Assembly: GCA_040702975.1 (NCBI GenBank)
Contig: CP159990.1
Span: 3,844,001 to 3,908,000, forward strand
Reading direction: 5' to 3'
Source: Roseburia hominis
Lineage (GTDB): Bacteria > Bacillota > Clostridia > Lachnospirales > Lachnospiraceae
DNA: 64,000 bases
Shown here: positions 35,516 to 54,389 of the stretch, in pieces
Numbering within the stretch: the stretch's first letter is position 1
Layout of the letters: every line of letters begins with the position of its first letter
The notes under the pieces: generated by a model
The model's input: only the letters and a program-made list of their open reading frames with translations
Databases searched by the model: none
Told to the model about the DNA's origin: nothing
Translations under genes and position numbers: made by a program

Positions 35516-35621
35516 GATACCACGGATTGCTCCGCACTTCGTGCTCCCGCAATCCTAAAAACATTCGAAATCCGCCCTATCGGGCTACTTTCTCATGTTT
35601 TTGCGGGCCTCAAAGTCATAG
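35474..35621. repeat. Direct repeat in the ahpC leader
   Basis: The 23-base sequence TTTGCGGGCCTCAAAGTCATAGG occurs at about 35474-35496 and again at about 35599-35621. Between them lies a hairpin-forming stretch (GGATTGC / GCAATCC). Confidence 0.75.
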
Positions 35622-35657
35622 GTTTTCATGCAAGCATGAAACCTATGACCTTTAGGC
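35605..35657 (-). promoter_or_regulatory. Long imperfect hairpin in the ahpC 5' leader
   Basis: GGGCCT, AAAG, TCATAGG and TTCATGC on one side pair with GCATGAA, CCTATGA, CTTT and AGGCCC on the other, about 24 pairs with a few bulges and a 2-base loop. It begins some 10 bases after the ahpC -10 box. No T-run follows, so it may protect or regulate the message rather than end it. Confidence 0.6.
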
Positions 35658-35666
35658 CCTTGGTAT

Positions 35667-35695
35667 CATTATATTTAAAATATTCCTTCAATTCA
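35667..35695 (-). promoter_or_regulatory. Promoter of ahpC
   Basis: On the minus strand TTGAAT, 17 bases, TATAAT, immediately upstream of the long hairpin, giving an ahpC leader of about 230 bases. An A/T-rich spacer could hold a PerR-type site but no full PerR box is visible. Confidence 0.65.
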
Positions 35696-35817: not shown

Positions 35818-35852
35818 AATTATATATAATGGGATAAAGGAGGAGATTGCCC

Positions 35853-36041
35853 ATGAGCGAAAAGAAATTAGATATCACGAATTTGAACGGTGTCAGCGAC
35901 GATGAGGACACCACTTGCGGCATCACTGATATGAATTGTGTTGGCGACAAGGAAGACGAGAGCTGCAGTATTACGGATATGAACTGTGTGGACGGCAAGG
36001 ACACCACCTGTGACATTACGAATATGAACTGCAACGATTAA
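35853..36041 (+). CDS. Six-cysteine acidic repeat peptide, unknown function
   Basis: 62 residues from an ATG 9 bases after AAAGGAGGAG. It consists of four imperfect repeats of about 15 residues with the theme ITDMNCVxxxDxxC. Cysteines fall at 22, 29, 38, 45, 53 and 60, spacing 7-9-7-8-7. It is very acidic and lacks a signal peptide. Promoter and terminator make it monocistronic. I do not recognise a family. It could bind metal, or be a precursor for a modified peptide, but no maturase gene lies beside it. Confidence 0.8.
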   Translation: MSEKKLDITNLNGVSDDEDTTCGITDMNCVGDKEDESCSITDMNCVDGKDTTCDITNMNCND

Positions 36042-38452: not shown

Positions 38453-38506
38453 ACTTTTCCCTCATATAAAATTATGCTAAACTATTCTTGAAAGGAAGCG
38501 ATCATC

Positions 38507-38785
38507 ATGGCCTTACCTCAAGAATATTACATCTTAGCATTTGATACTACTACCAGTGTTATGGAAGCCGAGGCTTATTTAAAAAATCATTTTCCCATCA
38601 CGATCATGCCGGTTCCCCGCGAGATCAGCAAGGGCTGCGGTCTGGCTATCCGTTTTCAAAAGCCTGACGTGGAGACGATTATTGATTTTTTAAAAACCTC
38701 TCCCCTTACCTGCACTCTGTATCGTATGGGAACCAAAAAAATCGATGGAAAACACCCCATCGAATCTCTACTTTCTATTGGATAA
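38507..38785 (+). CDS. DUF3343 protein (putative Se/S carrier-like)
   Basis: 92 residues matching DUF3343: YILAFDTTTSVMEAEAYLKNHFPITIMPVPREISKGCGLAIRF with a single conserved Cys in the KGCGL motif. Members occur beside selenium and sulfur transfer genes in anaerobes and are described as putative Se/S carriers. Its place immediately 3' to a locus with five UGA-containing genes fits that. AAAGGAAG precedes the ATG. Confidence 0.85.
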   Translation: MALPQEYYILAFDTTTSVMEAEAYLKNHFPITIMPVPREISKGCGLAIRFQKPDVETIIDFLKTSPLTCTLYRMGTKKIDGKHPIESLLSIG

Positions 38786-38819
38786 AAGGCCTGACTGCTA
38801 TGATACAGTCAGACCTTTT
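38784..38819. terminator. Terminator between DUF3343 and the sao operon
   Basis: AAAAGG-CTGACTG pairs with CAGTCAG-CCTTTT with one bulge per side. Symmetrical A- and T-runs let it serve both converging units. Confidence 0.85.
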
Positions 38820-38915
38820 CTTCATAGATATATCCGCGCAAAACTCAGACGGCCGCTTTGACACTTCACATCTTACTGCTACAGTTACTTACGACCATCT
38901 CAGTCTAATAAGACA

Positions 38916-39113
38916 CTACGCAATTCTCTCCGCTTCAAATCCCATCTCTTTCAGGATATCCATCGCAACTTCCATGCAGTGATCGCAGTCGCAAACGGAC
39001 ACCTTCTTGCCTTCAAAATCCACCTCGTGATTGATTCCGGCCTCTTCCAGCGCTGCGTCAATTTTCTTCGCACAATTCGGGCAGCAAAGTCCCGGCACAC
39101 TAAGAACTCTCAT
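38916..39113 (-). CDS. Heavy-metal-associated (HMA) domain protein of the sao operon
   Basis: 65 residues. The HMA-type N-terminal motif is GLCCPNC (C10, C11, C14), followed by the expected AKKIDAALEEAGI helix. A second cysteine group, CDCDHC (C41, C43, C46), is unusual for HMA proteins. It is the last gene of the operon, 12 bases after saoD. It may bind and deliver the metal ion released by the lyase. Function inferred. Confidence 0.85.
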   Translation of the reverse strand: MRVLSVPGLCCPNCAKKIDAALEEAGINHEVDFEGKKVSVCDCDHCMEVAMDILKEMGFEAERIA

Positions 39114-39125
39114 TTCAAATTCCTC

Positions 39126-39458
39126 CTACAGCGTAATGACCTGGTCTACTCCTGCCGGTGCCAGTGCCGCATAAACATTCGGGAAGCAGCCGATTCCTGC
39201 CGGTGCGATCAGTTTATCAGCGATATCTCTCTGGTAGCAGCATCTGTCGCATGCCATCAGAAGCATTCCGGTCTTCTCACTCAGCTTCTGAAGCCTTGCA
39301 GCGATATCACTTCCTTCTACCAGCATATAAGCATTGTCAAAGAAAAACATCATTCCTACTACCTCTACGCCGTGGCGATCTTCCTCGAGCTGCGGAATGA
39401 TCATGTTTTCAAGAATCTCTCTTGCATACTGTGATTCAAATAAATAAGCTACTTTCAT
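39126..39458 (-). CDS. saoD: DsrE-related protein SaoD
   Basis: 110 residues with a DsrE-like fold: MKVAYLFESQYAREILENMI and FFFDNAYMLVEGSD. The cysteine cluster CDRCC (C70, C73, C74) is in the position of DsrE active cysteines. I use the ATG at 39458 because AGGAGG lies 9 bases upstream; the open frame begins six codons earlier. It lies between saoL and the HMA gene. A thiol or selenol relay role is likely but not proven. Confidence 0.82.
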   Translation of the reverse strand: MKVAYLFESQYAREILENMIIPQLEEDRHGVEVVGMMFFFDNAYMLVEGSDIAARLQKLSEKTGMLLMACDRCCYQRDIADKLIAPAGIGCFPNVYAALAPAGVDQVITL

Positions 39459-39485
39459 GGTTAAAAACCTCCTCAATAAAATTCT

Positions 39486-40106
39486 TTATACTTCAAATGT
39501 CGCTTTCGCCTCTCTTACCGCGACATCGATATCTGCCTTGATAAGACCGGCCGGATCAAGCTCCATTTCAGTAACATATTGATCAAATTCTGCACCGCTG
39601 CAGAAAAAGTTCATGACGTTTCAGCAGGAACCTGCCCAGTCAGAAATCTGTCCCAACGGGAATGTCAGCGCGTGAAGCGTCTTTGGTGAATACTCCGCCA
39701 CCTTCCCATCTACTATTTTTACAAAGACTGGCTCGCCCGACACCGCAGACATGGAATGGACCTCCGTATCCTGGTGGAAAGTAAAGGCCGCTCCGATCGC
39801 ATCAATCGCGCACATAGCGGTAAAGCTCCTTCCGTCGGCCAGCGTCACATGATGATTCGTTGCCAGAGCCGATACCGGATAGATAAAATTCACGTCCCGG
39901 TCCTCACTGATCACCATTCCATCCTTTGCAAGCAGTACGCTCACAATCTCCTCATATTCCTGTTCGGACATGGAAAGCGCCTCCAGTACCTTTTCCTTAT
40001 CCTGATCCAGATTGAACGCTCTCTTCTCATTCACTGTAAATTCGATGATAAACAGCCGCACTTCATTCTGCCTGTCCGTAAATTTCTTATGTACATTCTG
40101 TTCCAT
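39486..40106 (-). CDS. saoL: MerB-like organometallic lyase SaoL, selenoprotein (UGA at 39621-39623 read as Sec162)
   Basis: 206 residues if UGA is read through. Residues 1-85 form a winged-helix domain; MCAIDAIG (C99, D102) matches the C-x2-D of alkylmercury lyase MerB. At the site of the second MerB cysteine the sequence is GSC-UGA-NVMNFFCSGAEF, giving C161-U162, and the homologous region continues 44 residues to TAA. A stem TTCTGCA / TGCAGAA with loop GCGG begins 15 bases after UGA. A conventional call would stop at residue 161 and lose the conserved NFF helix. MerB cleaves carbon-mercury bonds; the substrate here is unknown. Confidence 0.9.
39588..39605 (-). promoter_or_regulatory. SECIS-like hairpin of saoL
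   Basis: A 7-bp perfect stem with a GCGG loop, 15 bases downstream of the UGA codon, the place of bacterial SECIS elements. Confidence 0.7.
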
Positions 40107-40107
40107 T

Positions 40108-40944
40108 TTAAACTGCCTCTTTTTCTTTTTCTTCCTGTCCCTGAATGAATTCCATCAGGTCCTTATCCTCCTGTGTAAACACACCGCCGCTCAGCGCCGC
40201 CTTCAAAATCGTCGTCAGGCGGTCTACATACTCATGATACTTCGGATTTGTACGATCCCTTGGTCTTGGCAAATCTATCTTCAAATCCTCAATAATTTTT
40301 CCGTGATCCCTGGACATCACCACAACACGGTCGCTCAAATAGATAGACTCGTCCACATCATGCGTGACCATGAGCGCCGTCGTCGTCTTCTGCTGCAGAA
40401 TGCTTTCAAGCTGCATCTGCAGCATCTGTCTCATCTGAAAATCCACCGCACCTAGCGGCTCGTCCATCAAAAGGACCTGAGGATCACAGGCAATCGCACG
40501 AAGCAGTGCGACCCTCTGCTTCATACCACCGGATATCTCATGAATATAGTAATGCTCATAATCCGTAAGCTGGGCAATCTCCAGGAGTTCTTTTAATTTC
40601 TGTTTTCGCTCAGACTTGGGCAGCTTCATCTTCTTCATCGGATACTCAATGTTCTCTCCTACCTTCAGCCATGGAAACAGCGCATAGTTCTGAAACATGA
40701 ACGAACGATCCGGTCCGGGCTTATGTACTTCCTTCCCATTCACCACGATTTTTCCTGCCTCCGGCTTCTGGAACCCGGCCACGATGGTGAGTGTGGTAGT
40801 CTTTCCGCAGCCTGACGGACCAAGAAGAGAGACGAACTCCCCTTCCTCAACCTTGAAGGAAACATCCCTCAAGACCACGTTCTCCGGATCTCCTTTTTTT
40901 CTTCCTTTAAATGTTTTTGTAATACCTTCTACCGATATCGACAT
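40108..40944 (-). CDS. saoA: ABC transporter ATP-binding protein SaoA
   Basis: 278 residues of the NrtD/SsuB/TauB type. Walker A is GPSGCGKTT (42-50), the signature ISGGMKQ (137-143), Walker B LLMDEP (158-163). It would energise SaoP, encoded divergently on plus, with SaoB as the binding protein. The stop is one base from the saoL start and the start is two bases from the saoB stop, so all are co-translated. Confidence 0.92.
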   Translation of the reverse strand: MSISVEGITKTFKGRKKGDPENVVLRDVSFKVEEGEFVSLLGPSGCGKTTTLTIVAGFQKPEAGKIVVNGKEVHKPGPDRSFMFQNYALFPWLKVGENIEYPMKKMKLPKSERKQKLKELLEIAQLTDYEHYYIHEISGGMKQRVALLRAIACDPQVLLMDEPLGAVDFQMRQMLQMQLESILQQKTTTALMVTHDVDESIYLSDRVVVMSRDHGKIIEDLKIDLPRPRDRTNPKYHEYVDRLTTILKAALSGGVFTQEDKDLMEFIQGQEEKEKEAV

Positions 40945-40946
40945 CT

Positions 40947-41738
40947 CTAATTCCTCACTTCTTCTAATGGTAAAAAATTAATATTTTTATCGGAAAGCCA
41001 TTCCTCTTCCACTCCCAGTTTTTCTGCAAGATATACAGGCTCATTCAACTTCCTGATTGCTTCATTATAGCTTTTTATAAAGTCAGAAAATGCTTCCGTC
41101 TGCACAAATTCCTTATCCACCACCAGGACATAGGAAATGTAATCCTCCTTTGCAAGCGGGTTGCAGGAATACTCCGGCACCTTCGCCGCTTTTGTCAAAT
41201 CCTGAATGGCAGCATCGACCTGTCCGTTCTCCAGCGAATACAGAATCCCTTTCTGCGTGATCTCCTGAAATTTTTCAATCTGAGGGTATGTCTCCTTTGC
41301 CTGTGTCTTCTGCGCCTGTCGTCCCTGGCTTATCCCTACATTCTTCACATTGCCCCAGTCCCCTTTATAGCAGATGACTTCTGCATTCATGATAACCGGG
41401 CCATAGATCATAACATTCTCATTCTCTTCAATCGTATGTAAGGCAATGTGGCTGCAATAGAAAGCCACATTGATTTCTTCCGCACTCAGTGCCCACTGAG
41501 CAATATTACTTCAGCAATCCTGAAAAGACGAACTTTCCAAATTCTCAGAAACCTTATACTTTTCGCTTAAACCTTCCACAGTCTCATCCATCAGGATTCC
41601 TGATATGTCATCTCCGGCGCCGATCCGCACCTCCGCCTCTGCATTTCTTGGCTTTTCCTGCGGGAAAAATACGGTTACAGATAATCCTACAAGAATGATA
41701 CCTGCAATAAATATTGCAATCTTTTTGTCATTTCCCAT
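40947..41738 (-). CDS. saoB: ABC transporter substrate-binding protein SaoB, selenoprotein (UGA at 41511-41513 read as Sec76)
   Basis: 263 residues when UGA is read through; otherwise a 75-residue and a 173-residue piece in the same frame. An N-terminal membrane anchor (6-25) is followed by a periplasmic-binding-like domain. The binding region reads SFQDC-UGA-SNIAQWALSAEEINVAFYCSH, giving C75-U76, plus later cysteines. A perfect CTCAGTG / CACTGAG stem starts 10 bases after UGA. It lies 4 bases after saoE and 2 bases before saoA. Ligand probably a soft-metal or organometal compound. Confidence 0.88.
41485..41500 (-). promoter_or_regulatory. SECIS-like hairpin of saoB
   Basis: A 7-bp perfect inverted repeat around GG, effectively a 6-bp stem with a four-base loop, 10 bases after UGA. 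Confidence 0.7.
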
Positions 41739-41742
41739 CTGT

Positions 41743-42882
41743 TTATGCCGTTTTCAGCTTTGTTTTTAAATATTTATACAGCGAATATACCGCATATCCG
41801 ACAAGAATACTGCTGCAGATCCACTCACCCCACTCTGGTATCGTAATCATCAGCTTATTGGCGTGTGCAATGGTATTGGATGTTCTGTCGAAATCCAGCA
41901 CCGGCGAAAACCCCGGCATCAGCAGCTGATTCGTAATCCACCCCACAAAATTGGAAATAGCAACGACCATCGTAAAGTACATGATCATGGCTCTTTTTCC
42001 AATCGTTTTGGTAATCGTCAGAAGTTCCGGGATATTGGTTCCCGCTCCTGCCATCAAAAACGTGATCGCTACGCCCGGAGCCGCTCCGCTTGCCACCAGA
42101 GCAGCGATAAACGGAATATGGCCCACTGCACATACGTACATCAGTCCGGCCACCACCGTAATGCCAAGAAGAGAGATCATGCCCGGATTGCCCAGATAAT
42201 CCTGTACAAACGATTGCGGCACTACTGTAAACAGGAATCCGGCGATTAGCATGCCCGATACGGTATATTTACTGATCGTCACACTCAGCTCCGTCAGCGA
42301 CCAACGAAGCCCACTCTTTACCTTCTCCCAGAAGGTCGGCTCCTCAAATTCAAGCTGAATCATAGTCGGCCCTTCCTCTTCGTCCATCTCCAGGGAAATC
42401 GGCTCTTCCTCTTCTTTTTTATGTATTTTATTGATTCCGATATGCAGTTCATCTCCGGCAAAATGATTAGCCACCACACCAATAATCATAGGAGCAACAA
42501 ACCCGGTAATAATGTAAATAATCGTAATCTCTTTTCCCAAAAGCCCCCACGCCAGAATCACTGCCAGCGGATTGATCATAGGGGTACTGGTCATAAATGC
42601 CAGTGTCGGCCCCAGATACGCTCCGCTATAATACATACTGATTCCCAGCGGAATCGTGCCGCAGCTGCAAATCGGAATAAACATTCCTGATACGGTCGTC
42701 CAGAATACTCCACTGATTCTTTTAGAACCGATTGCCGTCTTCTGAATCTTCTCCGGCTTTAAAAATTCATGCAGCAAGCCGGCCACGACAAAGCTGAATA
42801 TCAGCCATGGCGATGAGCTGTTCAGCATGGACCATGCAGACACGATAATGCTGTATATAAACTCCCATAAATCTGTTATCAT
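41743..42882 (-). CDS. saoE: Permease SaoE (DUF318/ArsP-like efflux transporter)
   Basis: 379 residues with eight to ten membrane helices in two halves joined by an acidic cytoplasmic loop (about 155-180, EEEEPISLEMDEEE). The membrane motif PICSCGTIPL has C72 and C74, as in the SO_0444/ArsP-type permeases; ArsP exports organoarsenicals. A second motif MAGAGTNIPELL is in the other half. Its ATG overlaps the saoT stop by four bases. A role in export of metal or organometal is inference. Confidence 0.88.
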   Translation of the reverse strand: MITDLWEFIYSIIVSAWSMLNSSSPWLIFSFVVAGLLHEFLKPEKIQKTAIGSKRISGVFWTTVSGMFIPICSCGTIPLGISMYYSGAYLGPTLAFMTSTPMINPLAVILAWGLLGKEITIIYIITGFVAPMIIGVVANHFAGDELHIGINKIHKKEEEEPISLEMDEEEGPTMIQLEFEEPTFWEKVKSGLRWSLTELSVTISKYTVSGMLIAGFLFTVVPQSFVQDYLGNPGMISLLGITVVAGLMYVCAVGHIPFIAALVASGAAPGVAITFLMAGAGTNIPELLTITKTIGKRAMIMYFTMVVAISNFVGWITNQLLMPGFSPVLDFDRTSNTIAHANKLMITIPEWGEWICSSILVGYAVYSLYKYLKTKLKTA

Positions 42883-43133
42883 ATTTTAAGTGCCTCCTCA
42901 AATGCCTTTCTTACTGCCGGCTTCGTGAGTTTCGTCACTGCTTTCTTCTCATTGATCACCAACATACTCTTCGTTACCGCGCCATATTTTTTGATATAAT
43001 CAAAATCCTGCCCCGCACGATAAATCCTGACATTTACTCTTCCCTCATACTCTTTTTCCAGGACTTGAACCAAGTCACCAAACACCTCGCATCATGCGCA
43101 TGCGCTGATATATTCAATACACGGTTTCTCCAC
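42879..43133 (-). CDS. saoT: Thioredoxin-like selenoprotein SaoT (UGA at 43092-43094 read as Sec14)
   Basis: 84 residues from a GTG at 43133 that has GGAGG 8 bases upstream. The N-terminus is MEKPCIEYISACA-U-CEVFGDLVQVL, so the redox motif is C12-A-U14-C15, a Sec version of CxxC. The remainder has the thioredoxin-fold order with RAGQDFDYIKKYGAVTKSMLVI. Without read-through only a 68-residue headless frame starting at an internal GTG would be called. A GACTTG / CAAGTC stem with GTT loop starts 15 bases after UGA. First gene of the operon. Confidence 0.9.
43062..43076 (-). promoter_or_regulatory. SECIS-like hairpin of saoT
   Basis: A 6-bp perfect stem with a GTT loop, 15 bases after UGA. Confidence 0.7.
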
Positions 43134-43380
43134 CGCTCACACCTCCATTATCACAAAATCATCTTATAGCACTTGGCGGCCGCATCGCATACTATGCCCG
43201 CAATCCAAATGCCACTCTATTATATCCTTAATTTTCCTAAGTTACTTTATTTATCAAAAAATGTAATATTCTGTCATCCCTTTATTCCTTTGTTCGATAT
43301 TTCTATTCTAATTATTAAAATTTTGTTATTATTTGGCTGTATATAATTATAAGTGAGAGATTCTCAGGGGAGGTGAACTA
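43134..43380. promoter_or_regulatory. Divergent regulatory region between saoT and saoP
   Basis: About 250 AT-rich bases between two divergent starts. A TATAAT at 43342-43347 could be the saoP -10 box, 33 bases before its start; no good -35 box is seen. A LysR gene lies 3' of saoP and may act here. Confidence 0.45.
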
Positions 43381-44202
43381 TTGGGAGAGAATAAACAAGT
43401 TGACCGTATGATACACGCCACCAAGACAAAGGACAGACAGAACTGGCGTAAGATGGGCGGCAAGAATTATAATGTCGGAGCGATGATTTCCATCGTCATC
43501 ATCTGTGTGGTATGGTATTTTGCCGCGCACGCGGTGGGTTCCCCCTTCCTGTTCCCATATTTGGAAGACGTGGCTTACCAGATTTACTATTCACTGACAG
43601 ATATGTATGTGCTGGAGAATCTTGCCATCACCATGCGACGTGTCATAACCGGTTCCTTCTATGCATTTATTATCGGCTTTCCACTTGGAATGATCATGGG
43701 ATATTCGCCGAAGTTTCTTCAGACGATGTCACCCTTTATCAACTCACTCCGCCAGGTTCCGATCATGGCATGGGTGCCGCTTACGATCGTATGGTTCGGT
43801 ATCGGAGATGGGCCTACCATTTTCCTGATTGCATTCAGTGGAATATTTACCATTATTTTGAACACGGTCGCCGGCGTGCAGGATATCAGCAAAGACTTTT
43901 ATAATGCCGCAAGGTCCATGGGAGCAAGTACCTTAAGTCTTATTAAAGACATCGTAATTCCCGGTTCTCTTCCCGGCGTACTTACCGGGGTGCGTCTGGC
44001 GATCGGACTTGGCTGGATGTCCGTTATATGAGCGGAATTCATTGCGACAAGTGCCGGGTTCGGTTACATAATGGTGGAAGCACAGGGAAGACTGGAGACC
44101 GAGAAGGTCATTGCCTACATGGTAATTGCAGGTCTCATCGGATACCTGATCGATGCCATCTTAGTCCTTTGCGAAAGATTACTGCTTAGATGGAAAGAAT
44201 AA
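43381..44202 (+). CDS. saoP: ABC transporter permease SaoP, selenoprotein (UGA at 44029-44031 read as Sec217)
   Basis: 273 residues from a TTG start that has GGAGG 7 bases upstream. It is a SsuC/TauC-type permease: membrane helices, EAA-loop sequence YNAARSMGASTLSLIKDIVIPGSLPG at about 178-203, and then GLGWMSVI-UGA-AEFIATSAGFGYIM. Family members have a small residue directly before the conserved AE, so Sec lies in a membrane helix of an otherwise complete protein. The frame continues 56 residues to TAA and covers the last helices. A GTGCCG / CGG-TTAC stem follows the UGA. Partner of SaoA and SaoB. Confidence 0.85.
44051..44067 (+). promoter_or_regulatory. SECIS-like hairpin of saoP
   Basis: GTG-CCG pairs with CGG-(T)TAC around GGTT with one bulged base; it begins 19 bases after UGA and is the weakest of the five. 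Confidence 0.5.
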
Positions 44203-44249
44203 TACGGACGGAATTACGGCATGGCCACCAGGTTGCTGCCGTCTGAAAA

Positions 44250-44306
44250 AACAGGAGCTTTTCTATATGATTAGTCATTTTTTAGTCATATAGAAAAGCT
44301 CCTGTT
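44250..44306. terminator. Bidirectional terminator between saoP and the LysR gene
   Basis: A perfect 21-bp stem (44250-44270 / 44286-44306) with a 15-base loop, preceded by six As and followed by five Ts. Confidence 0.95.
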
Positions 44307-44332
44307 TTTAATTGCCGGGTATATAATAGAAA

Positions 44333-45241
44333 CTATTTGTATTTTTCCGTACAAAAATCCCGAAGCGCCTGTACCGTATCTGCTGCCGCCTCGCTTAGCT
44401 TTCTGTCCTTATGATACATCAGATAGAACTGGCGTCTGGAACTGACGTTTTTAAAGGAAAAGCCCAGGACCTTCTGTCTGTCCAGCGCCTCCTTTGCCGC
44501 CATCTTACTGATGAACGCAATTCCGCTCCCCGCTTCGACCGCTTTGCGTACCGGCTCGGAAGTCTCGAACTGCGCCGCCACATGCAGAGCAGAAATATCC
44601 AGTTTCAACTCTCTTTCTACATTCTCGTATGCCTTCTTGGTCCCGCTTCCCAATTCCCGGGTAATGAACCATTCTCTCTTTAAACGTTCCACCGGAAATG
44701 AACCTTGCAGGTTTCTGTATTTTGCGGTATTCGGCGTGATCAGAATGATCTCATCCTCAAACAAGATCTCAGAATGAATCTTCTCACTTCCACTGGAAAG
44801 CCCCCCAATCCCGATCTCCACATCATAGTTCAGAATCTTCTGCAGGACAGATCCGCTATCTCTCTCCACAATCCGAAATATCACATCTGCATTCCTTGCT
44901 TTCATATAAGGAAGAAACTGCGGAAACATATAACCGCCCGGAACAGAAGACAAAGCCACAAGAACTGTTCTTTCTGCCTCATTTCCGCTATTACTAAGCT
45001 TTTCCAATGCCTTATTTTCCGTCTCCAATAGCTGCAATGCATATGGGTAGAACACCCGCCCCTCCTCCGAAAGGATCACATCCTTCGTGGACCGCACCAA
45101 AAGCTGCACTCCAAGCTCTGCTTCCAACTGTTTGATGTGGGTACTGATCGTAGGCTGCGACAAATACAGATATTTCGCCGCCAGTGAAAAACTTTTATAA
45201 TTAACTACTCCAATAAAACTTCTTACGTACTCTAATCTCAT
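44333..45241 (-). CDS. LysR family transcriptional regulator
   Basis: 302 residues. The N-terminal winged helix reads FSLAAKYLYLSQPTISTHIKQLEAELGVQLLVRS, with the usual effector domain behind. I choose ATG at 45241 (MRLEYVRSF) by family fit; ribosome sites are weak and the frame starts 14 codons earlier. It is divergent from the Cys-Cys binding protein gene at 45507 and convergent with saoP, so it may control either. Confidence 0.88.
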   Translation of the reverse strand: MRLEYVRSFIGVVNYKSFSLAAKYLYLSQPTISTHIKQLEAELGVQLLVRSTKDVILSEEGRVFYPYALQLLETENKALEKLSNSGNEAERTVLVALSSVPGGYMFPQFLPYMKARNADVIFRIVERDSGSVLQKILNYDVEIGIGGLSSGSEKIHSEILFEDEIILITPNTAKYRNLQGSFPVERLKREWFITRELGSGTKKAYENVERELKLDISALHVAAQFETSEPVRKAVEAGSGIAFISKMAAKEALDRQKVLGFSFKNVSSRRQFYLMYHKDRKLSEAAADTVQALRDFCTEKYK

Positions 45242-45506
45242 ATACTTTTTCTCAACTATCCTTTTATTGCATCTGTAACACATTTCTTACTCTGCATTTC
45301 ATACAAGCCACAACATGATTCTCTGATTTTATTATAATTTGTTAATAATTTTAAGTCTAATCGAAAAATATGATATCTCTCTTGCTTTTATTTAAATTAG
45401 TAATATATTTTATTGACTCTTTTTATTTGCACGTGTATCTGCTATTATAATTTTACAAATATTAACAAATATTAATTTTTACTTTTTCAAACAAAGGAGG
45501 ACAATT

Positions 45507-46793
45507 ATGAAAAAGAGATTAATTGCCGTGGCTCTGGTTGGTGCCCTGCTATGCTCTCTTCTTACTGCTTGTCATAACAGTAAAGAAAATGCTCATACGG
45601 TAGATGTGGAAGCTACTGATTTCGACCCGAAAGAAGCCGTGGCCGACTACGAATTCGGTGAACTAAGTGATGCGGAAAAGAATCATGTAATCGAAATGGG
45701 CTATTACAACTGTGACCACATGTGCTGTTCCATTATCGGAGAGAAATCAGGTATCTATGAGGCTCTCGGTCTTAATGTAAACCTCACCAAATCCGGTGAG
45801 ACTGTAAACGCTCTGATCAGTGGCGCCATGGACGTTGGATATATCTTCTTCAGCAAGAACCTGATGGCAGATACTTCCCCGGTATTCCAGGCAGCCGCTA
45901 ACCACCTGGGTGGTTCCCGTTATCTTGTAGTAAGTAATGATATTGATATTAATGATCCCAAATCCATCGAGGGAAAGACAATTGCCATGACCGCAGAACC
46001 AGAAATCAATCCAGAGTGGAGAAAGTGGTCTGAAGAATACGGTTTTTCTTACAATGCCGCTGACTACAACATCGTTACCATGGGACAAAAGGATGCTATG
46101 TTTGCATTAAAAGCAGGACAGATCGATGCTTTTACCTGTTGCGACCCTTATGCATCTCAGGCTGAATTTGAAGGATTTGGAAAGATTATGTGTATCAGTT
46201 GGGGCGCAAACCTGGACGAAGGCGAGCTTCTTACGGAGGAAAATGCAGGAACCTGTTGTAGTTATGCTATGTCCGTTGCATTCAGAGAACAGTATCCGGA
46301 ACTTGCAAAACGTCTAATCTACGCACACATGCTCTCTGTGAAATACTTATACGAGCATCCGTACAATGCAGCTATGATGTTTGCTGACGGATTCGAGGTT
46401 GATCCATATGTAGGTCTTCGTACCGTATATATGAAGACGGTTGCGGAGGGTCGTACCATTACCTGGCAGTGGTCTGAGCAGACCATGCAAAATGATGAAG
46501 ATTTTTCAACCCAGTGGACAAACCCCTCTGTACCAGAAGAAGATATTATTTATGTGGCAGATTCTAAGAAATCTCTGGAGCTTTCCAATGAGATTTTCAA
46601 GGAAGCGGGTATTCCTGATTTTAACGAATTTATCAAAGAGTCTGTAGATGACACTTTCCCGCTTGGCATGACTTTCGAGGATTGGTATAATACTGCCAAG
46701 ACAATCGATAGTATCTCTGACGAAGATGCCATTGATATCACCAAAACGGCTACACCATATTTGAATGAAAATCTGGAAGAGAAAGACAAATAG
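45507..46793 (+). CDS. Substrate-binding lipoprotein with three Cys-Cys pairs (NMT1/NrtA type)
   Basis: 428 residues. A lipoprotein signal ends SLLTAC (Cys22). The binding fold has DVGYIFFSKNLMADTSPVF and AGQIDAFTCCDPYASQA. Vicinal cysteines occur at 83-84, 221-222 and 260-261, with further Cys at 79 and 239. That is exceptional for this family and points to a soft-metal or organometal ligand. It fits the same NrtA-type permease family as SaoP. A perfect terminator follows. It may be a second binding protein for SaoPA; inference. Confidence 0.85.
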   Translation: MKKRLIAVALVGALLCSLLTACHNSKENAHTVDVEATDFDPKEAVADYEFGELSDAEKNHVIEMGYYNCDHMCCSIIGEKSGIYEALGLNVNLTKSGETVNALISGAMDVGYIFFSKNLMADTSPVFQAAANHLGGSRYLVVSNDIDINDPKSIEGKTIAMTAEPEINPEWRKWSEEYGFSYNAADYNIVTMGQKDAMFALKAGQIDAFTCCDPYASQAEFEGFGKIMCISWGANLDEGELLTEENAGTCCSYAMSVAFREQYPELAKRLIYAHMLSVKYLYEHPYNAAMMFADGFEVDPYVGLRTVYMKTVAEGRTITWQWSEQTMQNDEDFSTQWTNPSVPEEDIIYVADSKKSLELSNEIFKEAGIPDFNEFIKESVDDTFPLGMTFEDWYNTAKTIDSISDEDAIDITKTATPYLNENLEEKDK

Positions 46794-46805
46794 GCTATTT
46801 TCAAA

Positions 46806-46840
46806 GAAGACCTGCGGTACCTGGTATCCCGCAGGTCTTC
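46806..46840. terminator. Terminator after the Cys-Cys binding protein
   Basis: A 12-bp stem GAAGACCTGCGG / CCGCAGGTCTTC with an 11-base loop, active in either direction; it also ends the molybdopterin pseudogene. Confidence 0.75.
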
Positions 46841-46897
46841 TAAATTGCAGAAAAACGTTCTTGCTAAAGTCTAATCCCGGATTCAACCGGACAACAC

Positions 46898-48217
46898 TCA
46901 ATCCTTTATCTTCGTCACTTTACATGGCACCGACTTATGTGTCAAAAATCCGGTCAACGGATCTGCATATTTCATACTGCAAATCGCATTTACATTGTGA
47001 TTCTTCCAATCACCTACCATATAGGAGCCTCCAGCCCCCGCGGCAACATGGATACTTCCTTTTGCCATTGGACAGACTCTCACATAGAACTCCCCTTTGC
47101 CAAATGCAGGTCTCAAGCTCTGTCAGATCCCCGTCTGCAACACCGTACTCACTTTCTTTCAGTGCTTCTGCCATCTTTTCATTGCCGCCACACATCCAAA
47201 GAAGTAGTTCTTCGTCATTCCCAGGATATTTATCACCGAATCCCATCTTTTCAGCAATCGCCTGGAAAATAAAAATATCGGTTCTTGCTTCTCCCACCGG
47301 TTCGATGATACGTCTGCGCAGACACATACCACCGGGGACAGAAATCGGTGACTCGTCTTCATAATATGTGGTAGACGGAAGAATCACATCTGTATACTTC
47401 GCGTCCTCTGACATAAATCGTTCCAATACTACCAGGCAGTCCAATTTCTTATAGATCTTTTCCCACAATTTCTGATCCGGATAGGTCAGAATCGGAGACG
47501 CTGCGCACACGATCATACCACGCACCGGATATGGATCGTCCTCCAATACGGCCTCCGGGATTCTGCAAAATTGACCACTGCCCGTCAGACGGCTAAATAA
47601 CGGGAATTCTTTTGCGCCGACTGCCTGCTCTACTGCTGCCATCGGCATGAGCGGAACTGTTGGATTCTTTTCCGTCATGATGCAGATACCACCCGGTACA
47701 TCCACTTTCCCGGTTATGGCAAACAGCGTCTGAATCGCTCTGTTATTCTGAAGACCGCTGAGCTGATATTCCAGACCTGTATAGGAAATCAAAGAAATCT
47801 TCGTGGTACTGTAGAAAATATCTACGATTTCATGAATCATTTCTACGGAAATACCACAGTATCCTGACATCTCTTCCACTGTAACCGTCTTTAAATATTC
47901 TGCAAATTCATCAAAGCCCTTAGTATAGTTTTCCACGAATTCTTTATCGTATCTTTCTTCTTCAACAATAATCTTAAGCATCGCAATAGCAAGCGCCCCG
48001 TCTGCACCCGGAAAAACCGGAACCCACAGATCTGCCATGCCTTCCCCTCTGGGATCGATCACCACGATTCTGGTGCCTCGCGCCTTGGCCTCTTCCACCG
48101 CTTTGAGTGCTGTAAGCAATCTTTATCAGGCTCCACCTTTACAATCTTTCCCTCTTCTATTGTAGCAATGACCCGGCATTTATCCGGGCAAATACCACAA
48201 AACCCTTTTTTCTTCAT
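46898..48217 (-). pseudogene. Molybdopterin oxidoreductase, decayed by internal deletion and frameshift
   Basis: The N-terminus MKKKGFCGICPDKCRVIATIEEG is the [4Fe-4S] start of a DMSO-reductase-family enzyme. After EPDKDC the frame changes and homology resumes at LTALKAVEEAKARGTRIVVIDPR, so some 100 or more residues, including the fourth cluster Cys and part of the cofactor site, are missing. The middle part runs intact to about 47120, where a second frameshift separates the cofactor-binding C-terminus (RPAFGKGEFYVRVC to KVTKIKD, ending at 46898). The enzyme cannot be functional as written. Confidence 0.85.
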
Positions 48218-48259
48218 CTTTATATCCATTCCTTTCGCGCTGCTCAAGGCACAAAACGT

Positions 48260-49800
48260 GATGAAAAAACGTTGGACTCTCGCAGCTTTCTTTTTATAAT
48301 AGTTTCCATAGGGATACTCAGTACACTACAAATCACGGGGAGGTGAGTGGGCTGTCCGAACTATTGGGTGACCGTATTTTTATATGTGTAGAATGCTTTT
48401 TCAAGTACAAATAAGTGTGCCTCGAGCACGTAACCTTATCTTTGTTAAAACAACTCTCGTTTTAATCCTAAGCATTCAGTCAATGCTGTTTACTCCCTAT
48501 AATTCTATCGAACCTATGGTTCTGAAAGGTGGCCCTATGGCTTTAAAAATTGTGTATCAAATTTGTTGTGGTATCGATGTTCACAAGACTTTTGTTGTTG
48601 CCTGTATCGCTTCCACTAACAAACAAGGTGTTACCACCTACAAGCGCCATCGTTTCTCAACCTTCACACAAGGGTTGAAGGAATTGTTACAGTGGCTGCT
48701 TGACAATCATTGTAAGGATGTCTGCATGGAATCTACTGGCAAATACTGGATTCCAGTTTACAATGTGCTCGAAAAAAGCTGTACAATTGTACTTGCTCAT
48801 CCCAAATATGTTAAGGCTATCCGTGGTAAAAAAACTGACAAGAAAGACGCAAAATGGATTGCTGACCTCTTCAAGCATGATCTTGTTGCCGGTAGCTTCA
48901 TTCCCTCTGTTGATATCAGACAACTTCGTGACCTGATGCGCTATCGTTTCAAACTGACCTGCTTTATGTCCAGTGAGAAGAACCGTTTTCAAAACTGTCT
49001 CACGGTCTCCAACATTCAGTTGGCTTCCGTTGTCTCGGACACTTTTGGTAAAAGTTCACAACGAATTCTGGATAAGATTCTTGAAAATCCTGAAGATACT
49101 TCTTTTGATATTGGACCTTTAATTCATGGCTCCATGAAGAAAAAGCTTCCTGAACTGGAGCTCGCCATTGATGGTTTTATCACACCGGAACAGGCTGGTA
49201 AATTAAAGATCATCAAAAAGCATTTTGAAGATTTGGAATCCCGGAAAGCAGAGCTAGAAGAACTGATTCTTGCGCTCGCCAGTCCCTATCAGCAAGAACT
49301 CGACCTAATCCTAACCGCTCCATCATTCAAAAATAAATTTACCGCTATCGGAATCATTTCTGAAATCGGCGTGAATATGGAGGCTTTTCCTTCGGCGAAA
49401 CACTTATGCTCATGGGCTGGACTTACGCCGACCAACAATGAAAGTGCAGGGAAGAAAAAATCTGTCCGGGTTTCCAAAGCCGGATGCTATATCAAACCAC
49501 TTTTGGTTCAATGTGCCAACTCTGTGGTTAAAAGTGAAAAGCACCCTGAAATCCGCAACCGCTATCTTCGTTTAAGAAAGCGCCGCGGCCACAAGAAAGC
49601 AATCATTGCAATAGCAAGAATGCTTCTAACAGCATTATACAACATGCTGAAAAATAAGGAACCCTATAATGCACAACTTTACCGAAAAAGTGATGTTCTT
49701 CCTGTCAATCGTGAAATTACAATTGAACAGGCAATTTTAATGGCTCAGTTTCATGGTTATAAAATCAAGTCAGTTGCTGAATAAACCTTAACTTTGCTAC
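48260..49800 (+). mobile_element. IS110 family insertion sequence (ends not defined)
   Basis: The transposase gene below lies between the decayed oxidoreductase and the sensor kinase stop, only 20 bases from the latter. IS110 elements lack clear terminal inverted repeats, so limits are approximate. About 280 bases of noncoding sequence precede the gene and may include the left end. Confidence 0.6.
48537..49784 (+). CDS. IS110 family transposase
   Basis: 415 residues from ATG at 48537, preceded by AAAGGTGG. The N-terminal DEDD domain shows CGIDVHK (D14), CMESTGKYW (E65) and KTDKKDAKWIADL; the C-terminal Transposase_20 domain has FTAIGIISEIGVNMEAFPSAKHLCSWAGLTP and NESAGKKKS. The gene appears intact. 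The frame is open 51 codons upstream without family similarity. Confidence 0.93.
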   Translation: MALKIVYQICCGIDVHKTFVVACIASTNKQGVTTYKRHRFSTFTQGLKELLQWLLDNHCKDVCMESTGKYWIPVYNVLEKSCTIVLAHPKYVKAIRGKKTDKKDAKWIADLFKHDLVAGSFIPSVDIRQLRDLMRYRFKLTCFMSSEKNRFQNCLTVSNIQLASVVSDTFGKSSQRILDKILENPEDTSFDIGPLIHGSMKKKLPELELAIDGFITPEQAGKLKIIKKHFEDLESRKAELEELILALASPYQQELDLILTAPSFKNKFTAIGIISEIGVNMEAFPSAKHLCSWAGLTPTNNESAGKKKSVRVSKAGCYIKPLLVQCANSVVKSEKHPEIRNRYLRLRKRRGHKKAIIAIARMLLTALYNMLKNKEPYNAQLYRKSDVLPVNREITIEQAILMAQFHGYKIKSVAE

Positions 49801-49804
49801 ATAT

Positions 49805-51451
49805 TCACTTCTTTTCCTCCTCTTCACCAGGCTGCACCACTCTCGGAAAATCTAAGATAAATGTTGTCCCTTTTCCTTCTTTCGTCTTCACACGAATCTG
49901 GCCGCCATGTTCTTCCGTCAGTCTTCTCACCACAGTAAGCCCGATACCGGTACCCTCGCCTGCTCCCTTCGTAGTGAAGAAGGGCTGAAATACCTGGCGC
50001 TGGATTTCCGGAGCAATGCCGGTTCCGGTATCCTCCACTACCAGGCGCACATTTTTCTCGTCATCTACACTAAGCCCAAACTGTATCCGAAGTGTTCCCC
50101 CTTCCTTCATCGCATGGAATGCATTCGTCGCAAGATTCAATATGATCTGATTTAAGGCACCTACCTGTCCATGGATATAATAAGGTGTTCTACAAATATT
50201 TTCCTTAAGCTTAATCTGATCGGGAAGCAGTTTTTTTACCATATTTACAGCTTCGTTCACCGCATAGGTCGCATCATAGTCCGTCAAGACCTTCTCTGCC
50301 TTGCCCTGGCGGCTGTAACTTAGCAGCTGCCGGGCAAGCTCCTCGCAGCGCGAGGCAGCGCTTTTCAGCTCCGCCACCTCTTCAGGCATCTCCTCACAGA
50401 CCACCTCGTTTTCTTCCAGTAAATCGGCATATAGCACGATCGGAGTCATCAGATTGTTAAATTCATGCGCAATAGACCCGGTAAGTACACTCATGGTCTT
50501 GGAATGATTATATTTCTCCATCAAGCCTTCCTGCTTTTTCATGGTCTCGTTCAACGTCTTTTCATGCTGCAATTCTTTTACCAGCAGCACTTCCTTCTTC
50601 TGGTGCTCAGTGATTTTATAAAGAAGCACGATCGTCCAGATCAACACTGCCATTCCCAACAGGCAAAAATAAAGTGCGATCTGATCGATTGGACGAATCA
50701 CGTTGTCATAATCCTCAATGATGTAAAGAGAAAACTCTTCCTCCCCGACCTTGAACGTCTCATACGCAATCAGTTTCCGCGTTCTGCTCGGCGTGCCGCC
50801 TTTTGCTTCATATACCCATTCGATCGTACACCCGTTTCCCGTCGTATGGGAAAGCGAAAGCCCTGTATCTTCATAGTCGCTTGGCATAATAATCGCGCCG
50901 TCCGTGCCCTTGACAATACAGTATCTGTTGTCTTCAAGCTGCAGGCCGGAAAGCGCCTGTTCGCCGGCATAGATCTCGTCCAGATTCAGTTCTACCTGTA
51001 CGTACCCCAGAATACTTCCATTTACTCCGACCGTCTTCGTCATATACAGAATGTAATATCCTTCCTTGGACTGCCTGACAGGGCCAGCGATCACTTCTCC
51101 CGGATTCCATGCTGCCATCCTGCAGACCTCCTTCTCCCACTCCTCAAGGGAATCATCCTGCGACATAGGGATGTATTTTCCCTTTTCTCTTAGCCGTATC
51201 AGACCGGTTTCAATATCCTCTTCTTCCTTCATATCACCGGAAAAAACTGCATAAATCACATTCCCCTTTGCTTCCAGACTTGCCTTTAAGCTCTGGGCAT
51301 TTACTTTGGCCAGGCTTTTCAGACTCTTCTGCTCATTCACAACAATCGTACTGCGCACATTGCGATAACAAAAAACGGCAATCGCCAGAAAAAACGCAAC
51401 TCCAATCATCATGATGATGATCTGCTTTTTTAGTACCTTTTTCTTTTCCAT
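49805..51451 (-). CDS. Sensor histidine kinase
   Basis: 548 residues. Membrane helices at about 10-28 and 258-278 enclose an extracytoplasmic Cache-like sensor. The phospho-acceptor is H329 in SIAHEFNN; the ATP-binding HATPase domain shows NLATNAFHAM, DTGTGIAPE and GTGIGLTVV. HEFNN-type kinases are less common in Clostridia. The ATG at 51451 follows TGAGG. It is divergent from the response regulator at 51582, so the two form one system. Signal unknown. Confidence 0.9.
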   Translation of the reverse strand: MEKKKVLKKQIIIMMIGVAFFLAIAVFCYRNVRSTIVVNEQKSLKSLAKVNAQSLKASLEAKGNVIYAVFSGDMKEEEDIETGLIRLREKGKYIPMSQDDSLEEWEKEVCRMAAWNPGEVIAGPVRQSKEGYYILYMTKTVGVNGSILGYVQVELNLDEIYAGEQALSGLQLEDNRYCIVKGTDGAIIMPSDYEDTGLSLSHTTGNGCTIEWVYEAKGGTPSRTRKLIAYETFKVGEEEFSLYIIEDYDNVIRPIDQIALYFCLLGMAVLIWTIVLLYKITEHQKKEVLLVKELQHEKTLNETMKKQEGLMEKYNHSKTMSVLTGSIAHEFNNLMTPIVLYADLLEENEVVCEEMPEEVAELKSAASRCEELARQLLSYSRQGKAEKVLTDYDATYAVNEAVNMVKKLLPDQIKLKENICRTPYYIHGQVGALNQIILNLATNAFHAMKEGGTLRIQFGLSVDDEKNVRLVVEDTGTGIAPEIQRQVFQPFFTTKGAGEGTGIGLTVVRRLTEEHGGQIRVKTKEGKGTTFILDFPRVVQPGEEEEKK

Positions 51452-51469
51452 AAAAAACCTCAATAGTAT

Positions 51470-51498
51470 TTGACTTTAAAAATGTCGAAAGCTATAAT
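51470..51498 (+). promoter_or_regulatory. Promoter of the response regulator gene
   Basis: TTGACT (51470-51475), 17 bases, TATAAT (51493-51498), 84 bases before the start. Confidence 0.75.
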
Positions 51499-51581
51499 CT
51501 ATAATATGATACACGGACAATAAGTGTATGCTGTAATAGCTCCTTTTGGCCCGTAACACTTAAGAAAGGCAGGTCTCCCCG

Positions 51582-52277
51582 ATGAACGATATCTCGGTTC
51601 TCATCGTAGACGATGAAATATCTGTTTTGAAAGCAATTTCCTCCGTGCTAAAGCATGAAAGTATAAATGCTGCCTGCGCAAAAAGCAGTAGCGAAGCCTT
51701 TCGTTATCTGGAAACGGATACCTTTGATATCATTTTACTCGATATCATGATGCCGGGGCAAGATGGTTTTTCCTTTTTAAAAGAGCTTCGCGAGAGAAAA
51801 ATCCTGACCCCCGTCATTCTGCTAAGCGGACGGGAAGAGGATTCCGCTCAGGTAGAAGGACTTGGGCTTGGTGCTGACGATTATATGACGAAGCCCTTCA
51901 GTAAAGCAGTGCTCGTCTCTAAGATCCGTGCCATCGTCCGGCGCACGCAGCAATATGCCTCTACCGATATGACACTGAATACCACCGCCAGCCGCGGCAG
52001 CTTTACGCTTCATTTTGACTCACAGACCGTTCTCAAAAACGGAAAGGAAATCTCTCTTTCCTCCAAGGAATTTGCTTTGCTGTGCTTTTTTATGGAGAAT
52101 CCGGAGGTACTTCTGACCAAGCAGGAGATTTTTACCAAGGTATGGAAAAGCGAGAATCCTGATGACAATTCCATTCTCGTCTACATCAAGCGGTTACGCG
52201 ACAAGATTGAAGACACTCCTTCCAAACCGGAACACATCATGACTGTCTGGGGGAAAGGATATAAGTTCTTTCCTTAA
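51582..52277 (+). CDS. OmpR/PhoB-family response regulator
   Basis: 231 residues. Receiver domain with the phosphorylated D54 in LLDIMMP, DD at 10-11 and K104; winged-helix effector domain from about 130 (GKEISLSSKEFALLCFFMENPEVLLTKQEIF) to YIKRLRDKIEDTPSKPEHIMTVWGKGYKF. Pairs with the divergent kinase. It may regulate the neighbouring saoC or the sao genes; inferred from position only. Confidence 0.93.
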   Translation: MNDISVLIVDDEISVLKAISSVLKHESINAACAKSSSEAFRYLETDTFDIILLDIMMPGQDGFSFLKELRERKILTPVILLSGREEDSAQVEGLGLGADDYMTKPFSKAVLVSKIRAIVRRTQQYASTDMTLNTTASRGSFTLHFDSQTVLKNGKEISLSSKEFALLCFFMENPEVLLTKQEIFTKVWKSENPDDNSILVYIKRLRDKIEDTPSKPEHIMTVWGKGYKFFP

Positions 52278-52297
52278 TATTTATCAAAAAAGTAAGA

Positions 52298-52335
52298 GCG
52301 ATGCCGGAGCTTTTCTGCCCGACACCGCCTTTTTC
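52298..52335 (+). terminator. Terminator of the response regulator gene
   Basis: GCGATGCCGG (52298-52307) and CCGACACCGC (52319-52328) pair with two G-U positions and are followed by CTTTTTC. Confidence 0.8.
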
Positions 52336-52340
52336 ACCGT

Positions 52341-52358
52341 AATTAGAAATCTCTAATT
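52341..52358 (-). promoter_or_regulatory. SECIS-like hairpin of saoC
   Basis: AATTAGA and TCTAATT pair perfectly around GATT, 11 bases after the UGA codon and already past the UAG stop, so it is purely RNA structure. Confidence 0.65.
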
Positions 52359-52366
52359 CAAGAATT

Positions 52367-52945
52367 CTATCAGCAATCTTCCATCCCTTCTCCGAACAGA
52401 TTGATCGTTTTCCCATCAGCCACCCGGAAAATACCATAACCTACTTTATTATTTTTCTGTCCCTGAAGGACAAATTCAATCTCATCTTTTTTGTCAATAT
52501 TCTGGAATTGAATTTTCTGATTCTCCACAGGTGCCGGTATCGGCTCCGTAAATTCATAATTCATTCCATCTCCGGAATCTACCACGACCATCAACCTGAC
52601 ATGCCTGTGATTTCCCAGATCAGTAACCCCCTCATGAATATCATCTTCCTCAATCGTATACACTACAACCAAATCCTTCAGGTCGTCATTCGTCAAATCC
52701 TCCTCACACGCGACCAGTACCTCCGCGTCCGGATACTGGGCCTTAAACACTTGTAATATCTTATTATCCTCCGGGACATTCTCGGCGTAGGTCAATTCTC
52801 TTCCCACCCTCGTTCCATCCGTATATTCTGTCACTTTGCCTGGTTCTGCCGTTACCTGCTTCTTTTCATATACCTCATCCAGTTTTCCACGAATCAGGAA
52901 ACCTGCCAGAATAACAACCACCAACAATAAAATCTTCTTTTTCAC
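52367..52945 (-). CDS. saoC: SaoC, small anchored selenoprotein ending Cys-Sec (UGA at 52370-52372 read as Sec192)
   Basis: 192 residues when UGA is read. One N-terminal membrane helix (4-19) anchors an exported acidic domain. The end reads GEGMEDC-UGA-UAG, so the protein would finish C191-U192, matching my recollection of SaoC as a Cys-Cys-COOH (seleno)protein with Sec or Cys at the last residue. A 7-bp hairpin follows at SECIS distance. A vicinal Cys-Sec tail could be a metal-capture site. It lies 9 kb from the main operon, beyond an IS110 element. Confidence 0.83.
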
Positions 52946-53111: not shown

Positions 53112-53195
53112 TTATATATAGAGACTTAAGACATGGGGAAGAATGCCATACTCCCAGTCGATATGCATGAAAAATATTTACAAGAAGGAGAAAAT

Positions 53196-54389
53196 ATGAT
53201 GCCAACTTCATTACCGGAACATTTTGAAGATTTTGCAGAAGCCCGTCGGGAAGGTTTTCTGCAAGTCAAAACATTAAAAGACAGTGGCAAAGATATCTGC
53301 GGAGCATTCTGCCAGTACACGCCGGCCGAGATTATCCGGGCTGCCGGATTGTGCCAGGTGGGACTCTGCGGACAGAGTGCCGCCCCGATCAAAACCGCCG
53401 AGACACGGCTCCCTGCAAACCTCTGCCCGCTGATCAAGGCAAGCTACGGACACGCACTGGAAGAGAGCTGTCCTTACGCCTACTTTTCCGATATCGTTGT
53501 GGGCGAGACCACCTGCGACGGAAAGAAAAAAATGTATGAGCTTTTGGGGGAATTAAAGCCCATGCAGGTCATTCATTTGCCAAATGTTCCCGATTATGAG
53601 CGTTCTCTTGAAATGTGGGTTTCGGAGATCCGCCGCTTTACCAGGGGGCTTGAAGAGCATTTTCATATTACGATTACTGAAGATCAGCTCAATGAAGCCA
53701 TTGAATGGTGCAACAAGGAGCGGATCCAGGCAGCCCGCATCTATGAACTGGGACGTTATGACCCGCCGGCGATCACCGGAATCAATATGAATAATATCAC
53801 AAACAACCAGCAATACCTGTTCGATCCGGAAGTAAAATATCAGAAAATAAACGAGATTCTGGATCAATGTGAGGAGAACTGGAAGAACGGGATCTATCCC
53901 TATGAACCGGATCCTTACCGTCCCAGACTGATCGTATCGGGCGGAGGATATTTTGGCACGTCCGCAAAGACGGTTGACGTCATTGAAGAGCTGGGCGGCG
54001 CGATTGTATGCTATGAGGGCTGCTGCGGCATTTCCTCACGCAGACGGCTGGTAGATGAGGACCGCAGCCGTGATCCGCTGGTGCGCATCGCCGAAAAATA
54101 TATCGAAGTTCCCTGCGCCGTAGTTTCACCGAATAACAGGCGTCTGGATCAGGTGCGGGAGACAATCACGGAATGGAAGGCCGACGGATACGTGAGCATT
54201 ACATTGCACTCCTGCAATCCATTTGCCATCGAAACAGAAAATATACGACGTGTCTGCGAGGAAATGGGAATCCCGCTCCTTCATATTGAGACGGACTTCT
54301 ATCCGGGAGACGAGGGACAGATCCGTACACGAATCGAAGCCTTCCTGGAAATGGTGCGGGAGGCAAAAAAGGAGGCTGCCCATGAATAA
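53196..54389 (+). CDS. 2-hydroxyacyl-CoA dehydratase family protein (HgdB/double-cubane type), first of pair
   Basis: 397 residues from the ATG at 53196, preceded by AGAAGGAG; the frame starts 21 codons earlier. Family signatures are GAFCQYTPAEIIRAAGLCQVGL, ANLCPLIKASYGHALEESCPY, ETTCDGKKKMYE, CYEGCCGISSRR and LHSCNPFAIE, giving several cluster-ligand cysteines. Proteins of this group carry [4Fe-4S] or double-cubane [8Fe-9S] clusters and perform ATP-driven low-potential reductions with an HgdC-like activator. No activator is in the window. Substrate unknown. Confidence 0.85.
   Translation: MMPTSLPEHFEDFAEARREGFLQVKTLKDSGKDICGAFCQYTPAEIIRAAGLCQVGLCGQSAAPIKTAETRLPANLCPLIKASYGHALEESCPYAYFSDIVVGETTCDGKKKMYELLGELKPMQVIHLPNVPDYERSLEMWVSEIRRFTRGLEEHFHITITEDQLNEAIEWCNKERIQAARIYELGRYDPPAITGINMNNITNNQQYLFDPEVKYQKINEILDQCEENWKNGIYPYEPDPYRPRLIVSGGGYFGTSAKTVDVIEELGGAIVCYEGCCGISSRRRLVDEDRSRDPLVRIAEKYIEVPCAVVSPNNRRLDQVRETITEWKADGYVSITLHSCNPFAIETENIRRVCEEMGIPLLHIETDFYPGDEGQIRTRIEAFLEMVREAKKEAAHE

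Follow-up and report, generated by a model that had tools for sequence, protein, structure and literature searches.

A nine-gene SAO locus of Roseburia hominis with five predicted selenoproteins, a MerB-related lyase and recurrent neighbouring modules

What does a gene cluster with five in-frame UGA codons do, and which cargo does it handle? The question is raised by a locus of Roseburia hominis (GenBank assembly GCA_040702975.1, contig CP159990.1), which was analysed within a stretch of 64,000 nucleotides (positions 3,844,001 to 3,908,000 of the forward strand; hereafter the window, in whose own numbering positions are given). The core locus is already known: it is the published selenocysteine-assisted organometal (SAO) system (Haft and Gwadz, 2023, J Bacteriol 205:e00259-22, as cited in excerpts of PMC13188914 and PMC10418091). 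Added here are (i) the alignment of a predicted selenocysteine (Sec) of its lyase SaoL with Cys159 of MerB and (ii) reductase, metal-domain and molybdenum modules that recur at such loci. Our preferred reading, to which we give about an even chance, is that the nine genes, through predicted selenoproteins, serve to capture an organometal, bring it into the cell, cleave it and export the freed metal; the most likely cargo is an organomercurial, for instance methylmercury.

Ten candidate proteins of the window were searched against the NCBIfam profiles with TGA read as Sec. SaoA, SaoB, SaoC, SaoD, SaoE, SaoL, SaoP, SaoT and SaoX, encoded at one locus, all scored above the cut-offs curated for their respective equivalogs (9/9; Table 1). 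An earlier note on this DNA had rightly called the locus SAO but had not named saoX or the accessory modules. It had also described overlaps linking saoT, saoE, saoB, saoA and saoL; saoT and saoE do overlap by 4 bases, whereas the E-B, B-A and A-L junctions are gaps of 4, 2 and 1 bases. Sec forms are on record for SaoL, SaoB, SaoC, SaoP, SaoT and SaoX (excerpts of PMC13188914), whereas the saoX of the window encodes Cys instead. Its saoC stands apart from the other sao genes, adjoining a two-component system, and to the described set, known to us through citing papers only, the window adds an adjacent pair of double-cubane-cluster reductase (DCCP) genes, a double-Cys HMA-domain protein, a decayed MopB gene and an IS110 element.

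For the analysis of the in-frame UGAs, relatives were taken from 14 loci fetched by SaoL and three from further genomes, and each codon column was counted over the loci with the gene in the fetched stretch. In saoT, saoB, saoL, saoP and saoC the curated profile spans one in-frame TGA each and the frame runs on to a normal stop, as the earlier note had it. The residues named there also proved correct, namely Cys directly before the TGA in saoL, saoB and saoC, the motif C-A-U-C in saoT and the Cys-Sec end of saoC. The column holds TGA in all 16 SaoL relatives with the site (L023 is without it), in 14/14 SaoP relatives, and in 10 of 13 SaoB relatives, the other three having TGC. For SaoT it is TGA in 10/13, and the remaining three carry a TGA two residues earlier. 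SaoC has TGA in one relative and Cys in 10 of 11, with a Cys-Cys end in 10/11, and column 212 of SaoX, a Cys in the window, is TGA in 3/13. Apart from the shifted SaoT codons, relatives thus have UGA or Cys at these columns, with homology on both sides, and no further internal stop was found in their aligned UGA genes except one at the extreme end of one SaoB alignment (SaoC was outside this test). The genome encodes selA, selB, selC and selD, all over the cut-off, and selD has an in-frame TGA of its own. From sequence comparison the five genes are predicted to make selenoproteins with Sec at the UGA.

Two side observations concern these genes. selB, selA and selD are clustered (G000:C1:76058-80435), while selC lies about 0.8 Mb off (901998-902091) among neighbours that appear to resemble a selenium-type molybdenum hydroxylase set. 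In Dorea sp. 5-2 most of saoL is missing, UGA included (L023 10001-10126), and the other SAO genes are kept.

A hairpin had been claimed after every UGA. One can be drawn at all five, but in the window alone none is better than those of 10 to 42% of codons, and it is across relatives that saoL, saoB, saoT and saoP stand out. The window was tested with single hairpins (loop 14 to 26 bases past the codon, G at the loop start, 1200 sampled window codons); the codons as good or better were 10% for saoL, 11% for saoB, 14% for saoT, 35% for saoP and 42% for saoC. The cross-relative test took the mean over the window plus its relatives, also counting rows that lack TGA, for saoL, saoB, saoT and saoP but not saoC. 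The UGA column ranked 3 of 206 in SaoL (14 rows), 3 of 259 in SaoB (12 rows, two with TGC), 2 of 83 in SaoT (12 rows, two without TGA there) and 12 of 271 in SaoP (13 rows). The combined p over the four genes, 1.4e-4, is rough, since adjacent columns have hairpins in common and the sequences come from relatives. The folding energy of the whole 52-base fragment after the UGA was discarded as a measure, being unexceptional (13 to 54% of 3918 codon positions are equally low).

SaoL is a relative of MerB and not a classical MerB. Its predicted structure has the MerB fold and aligns with PDB 5c17, 3f0o and 1s6l at 13 to 19% identity, and its Cys99, Asp102 and Sec162 align with Cys96, Asp99 and Cys159 of MerB. 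The two proteins share the predicted fold and these catalytic positions, whereas SaoL differs by a predicted Sec at the 159 position and a Cys added before it. In contrast to the mer operon, MerA over the cut-off was found in none of eight SAO genomes, the best score being 357 bits (in the window's own genome) against 454.

A route of capture, import, cleavage and export fits the protein families and the modelled fold and active site of SaoL, and may run as follows. Outside the membrane, a thiophilic R-M+ would be bound by the Cys-rich SaoX together with SaoB and SaoC, anchored proteins with Cys-Sec pairs (the hydrophobic N-terminus of SaoB resembles a membrane anchor), and SaoP and SaoA would import it past the Sec in the permease. 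SaoT, which has the C-A-U-C motif, could hand the cargo on or keep selenols reduced. SaoL would be a MerB with selenium, in which Cys99 and Sec162 hold the metal and Asp102 donates a proton to the carbon. SaoD, and in the sublineage of the window also the HMA-domain protein, might then bring the metal ion to SaoE for export.

Table 1. Features of the SAO locus and its neighbourhood in the window, with profile scores against curated cut-offs.
Feature	Position	Strand	Remarks
DUF3343, putative Se/S carrier	38507..38785	+	PF11823 70.6 vs 25; convergent with operon
Small HMA-domain-like protein	38916..39113	-	CCPNC and CDCDHC motifs; PF00403 23.4, just under cut-off 24.8; no NCBIfam match
saoD, DsrE-related protein	39126..39458	-	NF040732 191.6 vs 169; GGAGG upstream of start
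saoL, MerB-like lyase	39486..40106	-	In-frame UGA 39623-39621 (residue 162)
saoA, ABC ATPase	40108..40944	-	NF040729 440 vs 360
saoB, substrate-binding predicted selenoprotein	40947..41738	-	NF040727 282 vs 140; UGA 41513-41511 after Cys
saoE, ArsP_1/SO_0444-related efflux permease	41743..42882	-	NF040736 567 vs 325; PF03773 177 vs 32
saoT, thioredoxin-like predicted selenoprotein	42879..43133	-	NF040730 104 vs 65 (scored from an open reading frame start 21 bases further upstream); C-A-U-C; UGA 43094-43092; GTG start, GGAGG upstream; terminal stop likewise UGA
saoP, ABC permease	43381..44202	+	NF040733 402 vs 295; UGA 44029-44031 (residue 217)
Selenium-metabolism-associated LysR-type regulator	44333..45283	-	NF040786 287 vs 250
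saoX, Cys-rich substrate-binding lipoprotein-like subunit	45507..46793	+	NF040735 444 vs 300; Cys form
MopB (molybdopterin oxidoreductase) remnant	46901..48217	-	Three blocks, two internal stretches missing
IS110-family transposase	48384..49784	+	NF033542 248 vs 140; adjoins MopB remnant
Sensor histidine kinase	49805..51463	-	PF00512/PF02518; 8/18 SAO loci, window included
OmpR-type response regulator	51582..52277	+	PF00072/PF00486; at least 50% identity in 7/18 loci, window included; likely partner of the histidine kinase
saoC, hydrophobic N-terminus, Cys-Sec end	52367..52945	-	NF040734 179 vs 80; UGA 52372-52370, then TAG
DCCP1, double-cubane-cluster reductase family	53133..54389	+	NF040772 440 vs 350; PDB 6eno/7yyl
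DCCP2, divergent paralogue	54382..55473	+	Overlaps DCCP1 by 8 bases; NF040772 307, under cut-off 350

Neighbouring genes were compared over 18 loci (the window, L010-L023, L044, L048 and G269, the last represented by L047 plus L070); L045, L046 and L049 were taken as repeats of L010, L017 and L012 and not counted. Seven of the 18 have a DCCP-family gene within the stretch fetched (the window, L011, L013, L019, L021, L023 and G269), and the genome assigned to L012 has one on another contig, adjoining saoC and saoP (L071). DCCP1 of the window resembles the known DCCPs (PDB 6eno, 7yyl) in that it exceeds the family cut-off and aligns over 365 residues, but it belongs to a separate clade, usually accompanied by a divergent second subunit. 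In a tree of 32 rows, mainly from SAO genomes (L088 and L089 were dropped as duplicates of the L019 and L047 rows), this DCCP1 clade, as read from the tree, has a support of 100 by the Shimodaira-Hasegawa-like approximate likelihood ratio test (SH-aLRT) and at least 62% identity to the window. It comprises the window, L019, L021, L023, L071, the L017 genome and G708, while the DCCPs of L011, L013 and G269 fall outside. The clade member sits between saoL and saoP in L019 and between saoA and saoP in L021, and the L017 genome has the pair 43 kb from saoP. Among 397 genomes of the family, SaoL occurs in five, DCCP1 (at least 72% identity) in four and both in three (Fisher p 3.9e-6, uncorrected for kinship). 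The pair was rejected as exclusive to SAO, since G708 carries it without SaoL or SaoP over the cut-off. It is likely accessory and could deliver very low-potential electrons, for example for regenerating selenols or reducing the released metal or chalcogenide. Of the window genes scanned, none is a partner activase of the BadF type (the genome beyond them was not searched). In G269 (L047 9710-12764 and L070), about 60 kb separate saoL from the remaining sao genes; adjoining it are a DCCP accompanied by a BadF-type activase, a molybdenum hydroxylase and a gene resembling DUF3343.

The HMA protein occurs at four of the 18 loci (the window, L010, L013 and L023), always adjoining saoD. The protein collection contains 21 sequences closely related to it, and its six Cys are invariant in 13/13 aligned (of 22 sequences). 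It was dismissed as an SAO marker, with some match in 57 of the 397 family genomes and one of at least 80% identity only in G000 and G642; three of the five SaoL-bearing genomes are without it at 80% identity, and it marks a sublineage only. Open-frame relatives of the MopB remnant are found in L016, L018 and L017 (in the last, the stretch stops within the gene), with a more distant one in L011, and MobA/MoeA-like genes at L011, L016 and L018. DUF3343, the selenium-linked LysR regulator and the two-component pair likewise recur across SAO loci, and the LysR regulator and the two-component pair may control the system. DUF3343 and a selenium LysR subfamily have been proposed as selenium genes (excerpts of PMC5322559). 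The recurrent reductase and metal-domain modules offer concrete candidate partners of the SAO system.

Several points weigh against the organometal reading. We only infer the organometal substrate and the direction of transport, and importing a toxic organometal would be odd unless the metal, the carbon group or selenium is wanted. SaoL stays far below the curated MerB cut-offs (NF009710 37 vs 193, NF033555 35 vs 200). No Cys form of SaoL or SaoP occurs among the relatives, so that an exchange of U and C is unseen for both; the SaoP position aligns with Ala in the distant permease CmpB, and for SaoL the case for Sec comes from the alignment to a catalytic Cys of MerB. The window-only hairpins are not significant (combined p 0.08). 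Finally, a corrinoid methyltransferase cluster that encodes three URO-D proteins, one B12-binding protein and an activase of the RACo type lies upstream of the DCCP1/2 pair in G708 (L105 3526-13202). The content of this cluster is like that of the type I mlp corrinoid methyltransferase clusters, with which the legend of Fig. 5 in the preprint PMC10418091 names DCCP and Sao genes; among the literature matches listed, whose scope excludes Haft and Gwadz (2023) itself, this legend alone links SAO and double-cubane genes. Unlike those clusters, the window has no URO-D, B12-binding or RACo gene among the genes scanned (the rest of the genome was not searched).

The corrinoid neighbourhood of the pair in G708, together with DUF3343 and the LysR regulator, suggests that the cargo may be organoselenium. 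SAO would then import methyl-selenium compounds, and SaoL and the DCCP pair would free selenide for selenoproteins. The two selenium-linked genes stand within the locus, and corrinoid clusters such as that adjoining the G708 pair have been proposed for methyl-selenide (excerpts of PMC10418091). Against this, SaoL retains the MerB fold and the residues of C-Hg protonolysis, SaoE is related to metal-efflux families, the HMA protein has Cys motifs of a metal-binding type, and G708 has the DCCP pair without SaoL or SaoP. We know of no MerB-type protonolysis of C-Se bonds. On balance we regard an organoselenium cargo as unlikely.

Another organometal, whether organotin, organolead or a methylated arsenical, is a distinctly unlikely cargo in our judgement. 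The ArsP_1 family, which SaoE resembles (PF03773), includes organoarsenical efflux, and MerB binds organotin and organolead; however, C-As bonds are cleaved by unrelated enzymes, and in the alignment SaoL shows the residues that act in mercury cleavage. That the UGAs are true stops in decaying or shortened genes is very improbable: the unexceptional window-only hairpins and the decayed MopB neighbour would agree with it, but the same UGA columns recur in up to 16/16 relatives with conserved sequence beyond and no other stops, some relatives have Cys there, and the Sec machinery is complete.

Under the preferred organometal reading, the distribution of the system bears on mercury in the gut. 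SaoL is sparse (4/391 class genomes and 5/397 family genomes, own genome included), and neither SaoL nor SaoP exceeds the cut-off in G614, a genome from the same genus as the window. SAO loci are present in records named Extibacter muris, Dorea and uncultured Lachnospiraceae, all of them gut-associated groups. Demethylation of methylmercury in the gut may lower its reabsorption. One human study reported no merB in any of its faecal samples, while degradation was inferred (Rothenberg, 2016, as given in excerpts of PMC8220164, where other possible routes of methylmercury degradation are also named). SAO could account for such breakdown without merB. SaoL could escape merB searches that start from classical MerB, because it scores 35 to 37 bits against cut-offs near 200, and because its frame under the standard code ends at the UGA after 161 codons. 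A bolder version, which we put forward tentatively and think rather unlikely as a whole, is that gut and other anaerobes have a selenium-based variant of the mercury lyase pathway, in which a Cys-Asp-Sec SaoL demethylates imported methylmercury, with a dedicated ATP-driven DCCP pair, shared with corrinoid methyl-transfer clusters, as electron source; this would be the missing merB-independent gut demethylase.

Three minor observations remain. The structure model of SaoC (pLDDT 81) matches no PDB entry at E <= 0.001, and its partial likeness to the propeller repeats of integrins (prob 0.97, E 0.36) was too weak to be used. Upstream of dihydroxyacetone-kinase-like genes the window has a putative short Cys-rich peptide (35847-36041, plus strand) with three C-x-I-T-[DN]-M-N-C units, for which no Pfam match and no tandem array was found. 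A predicted Clostridiales-1 RNA (RF01699, 145 bits; 35515-35668, minus strand) adjoins a peroxiredoxin-like gene.

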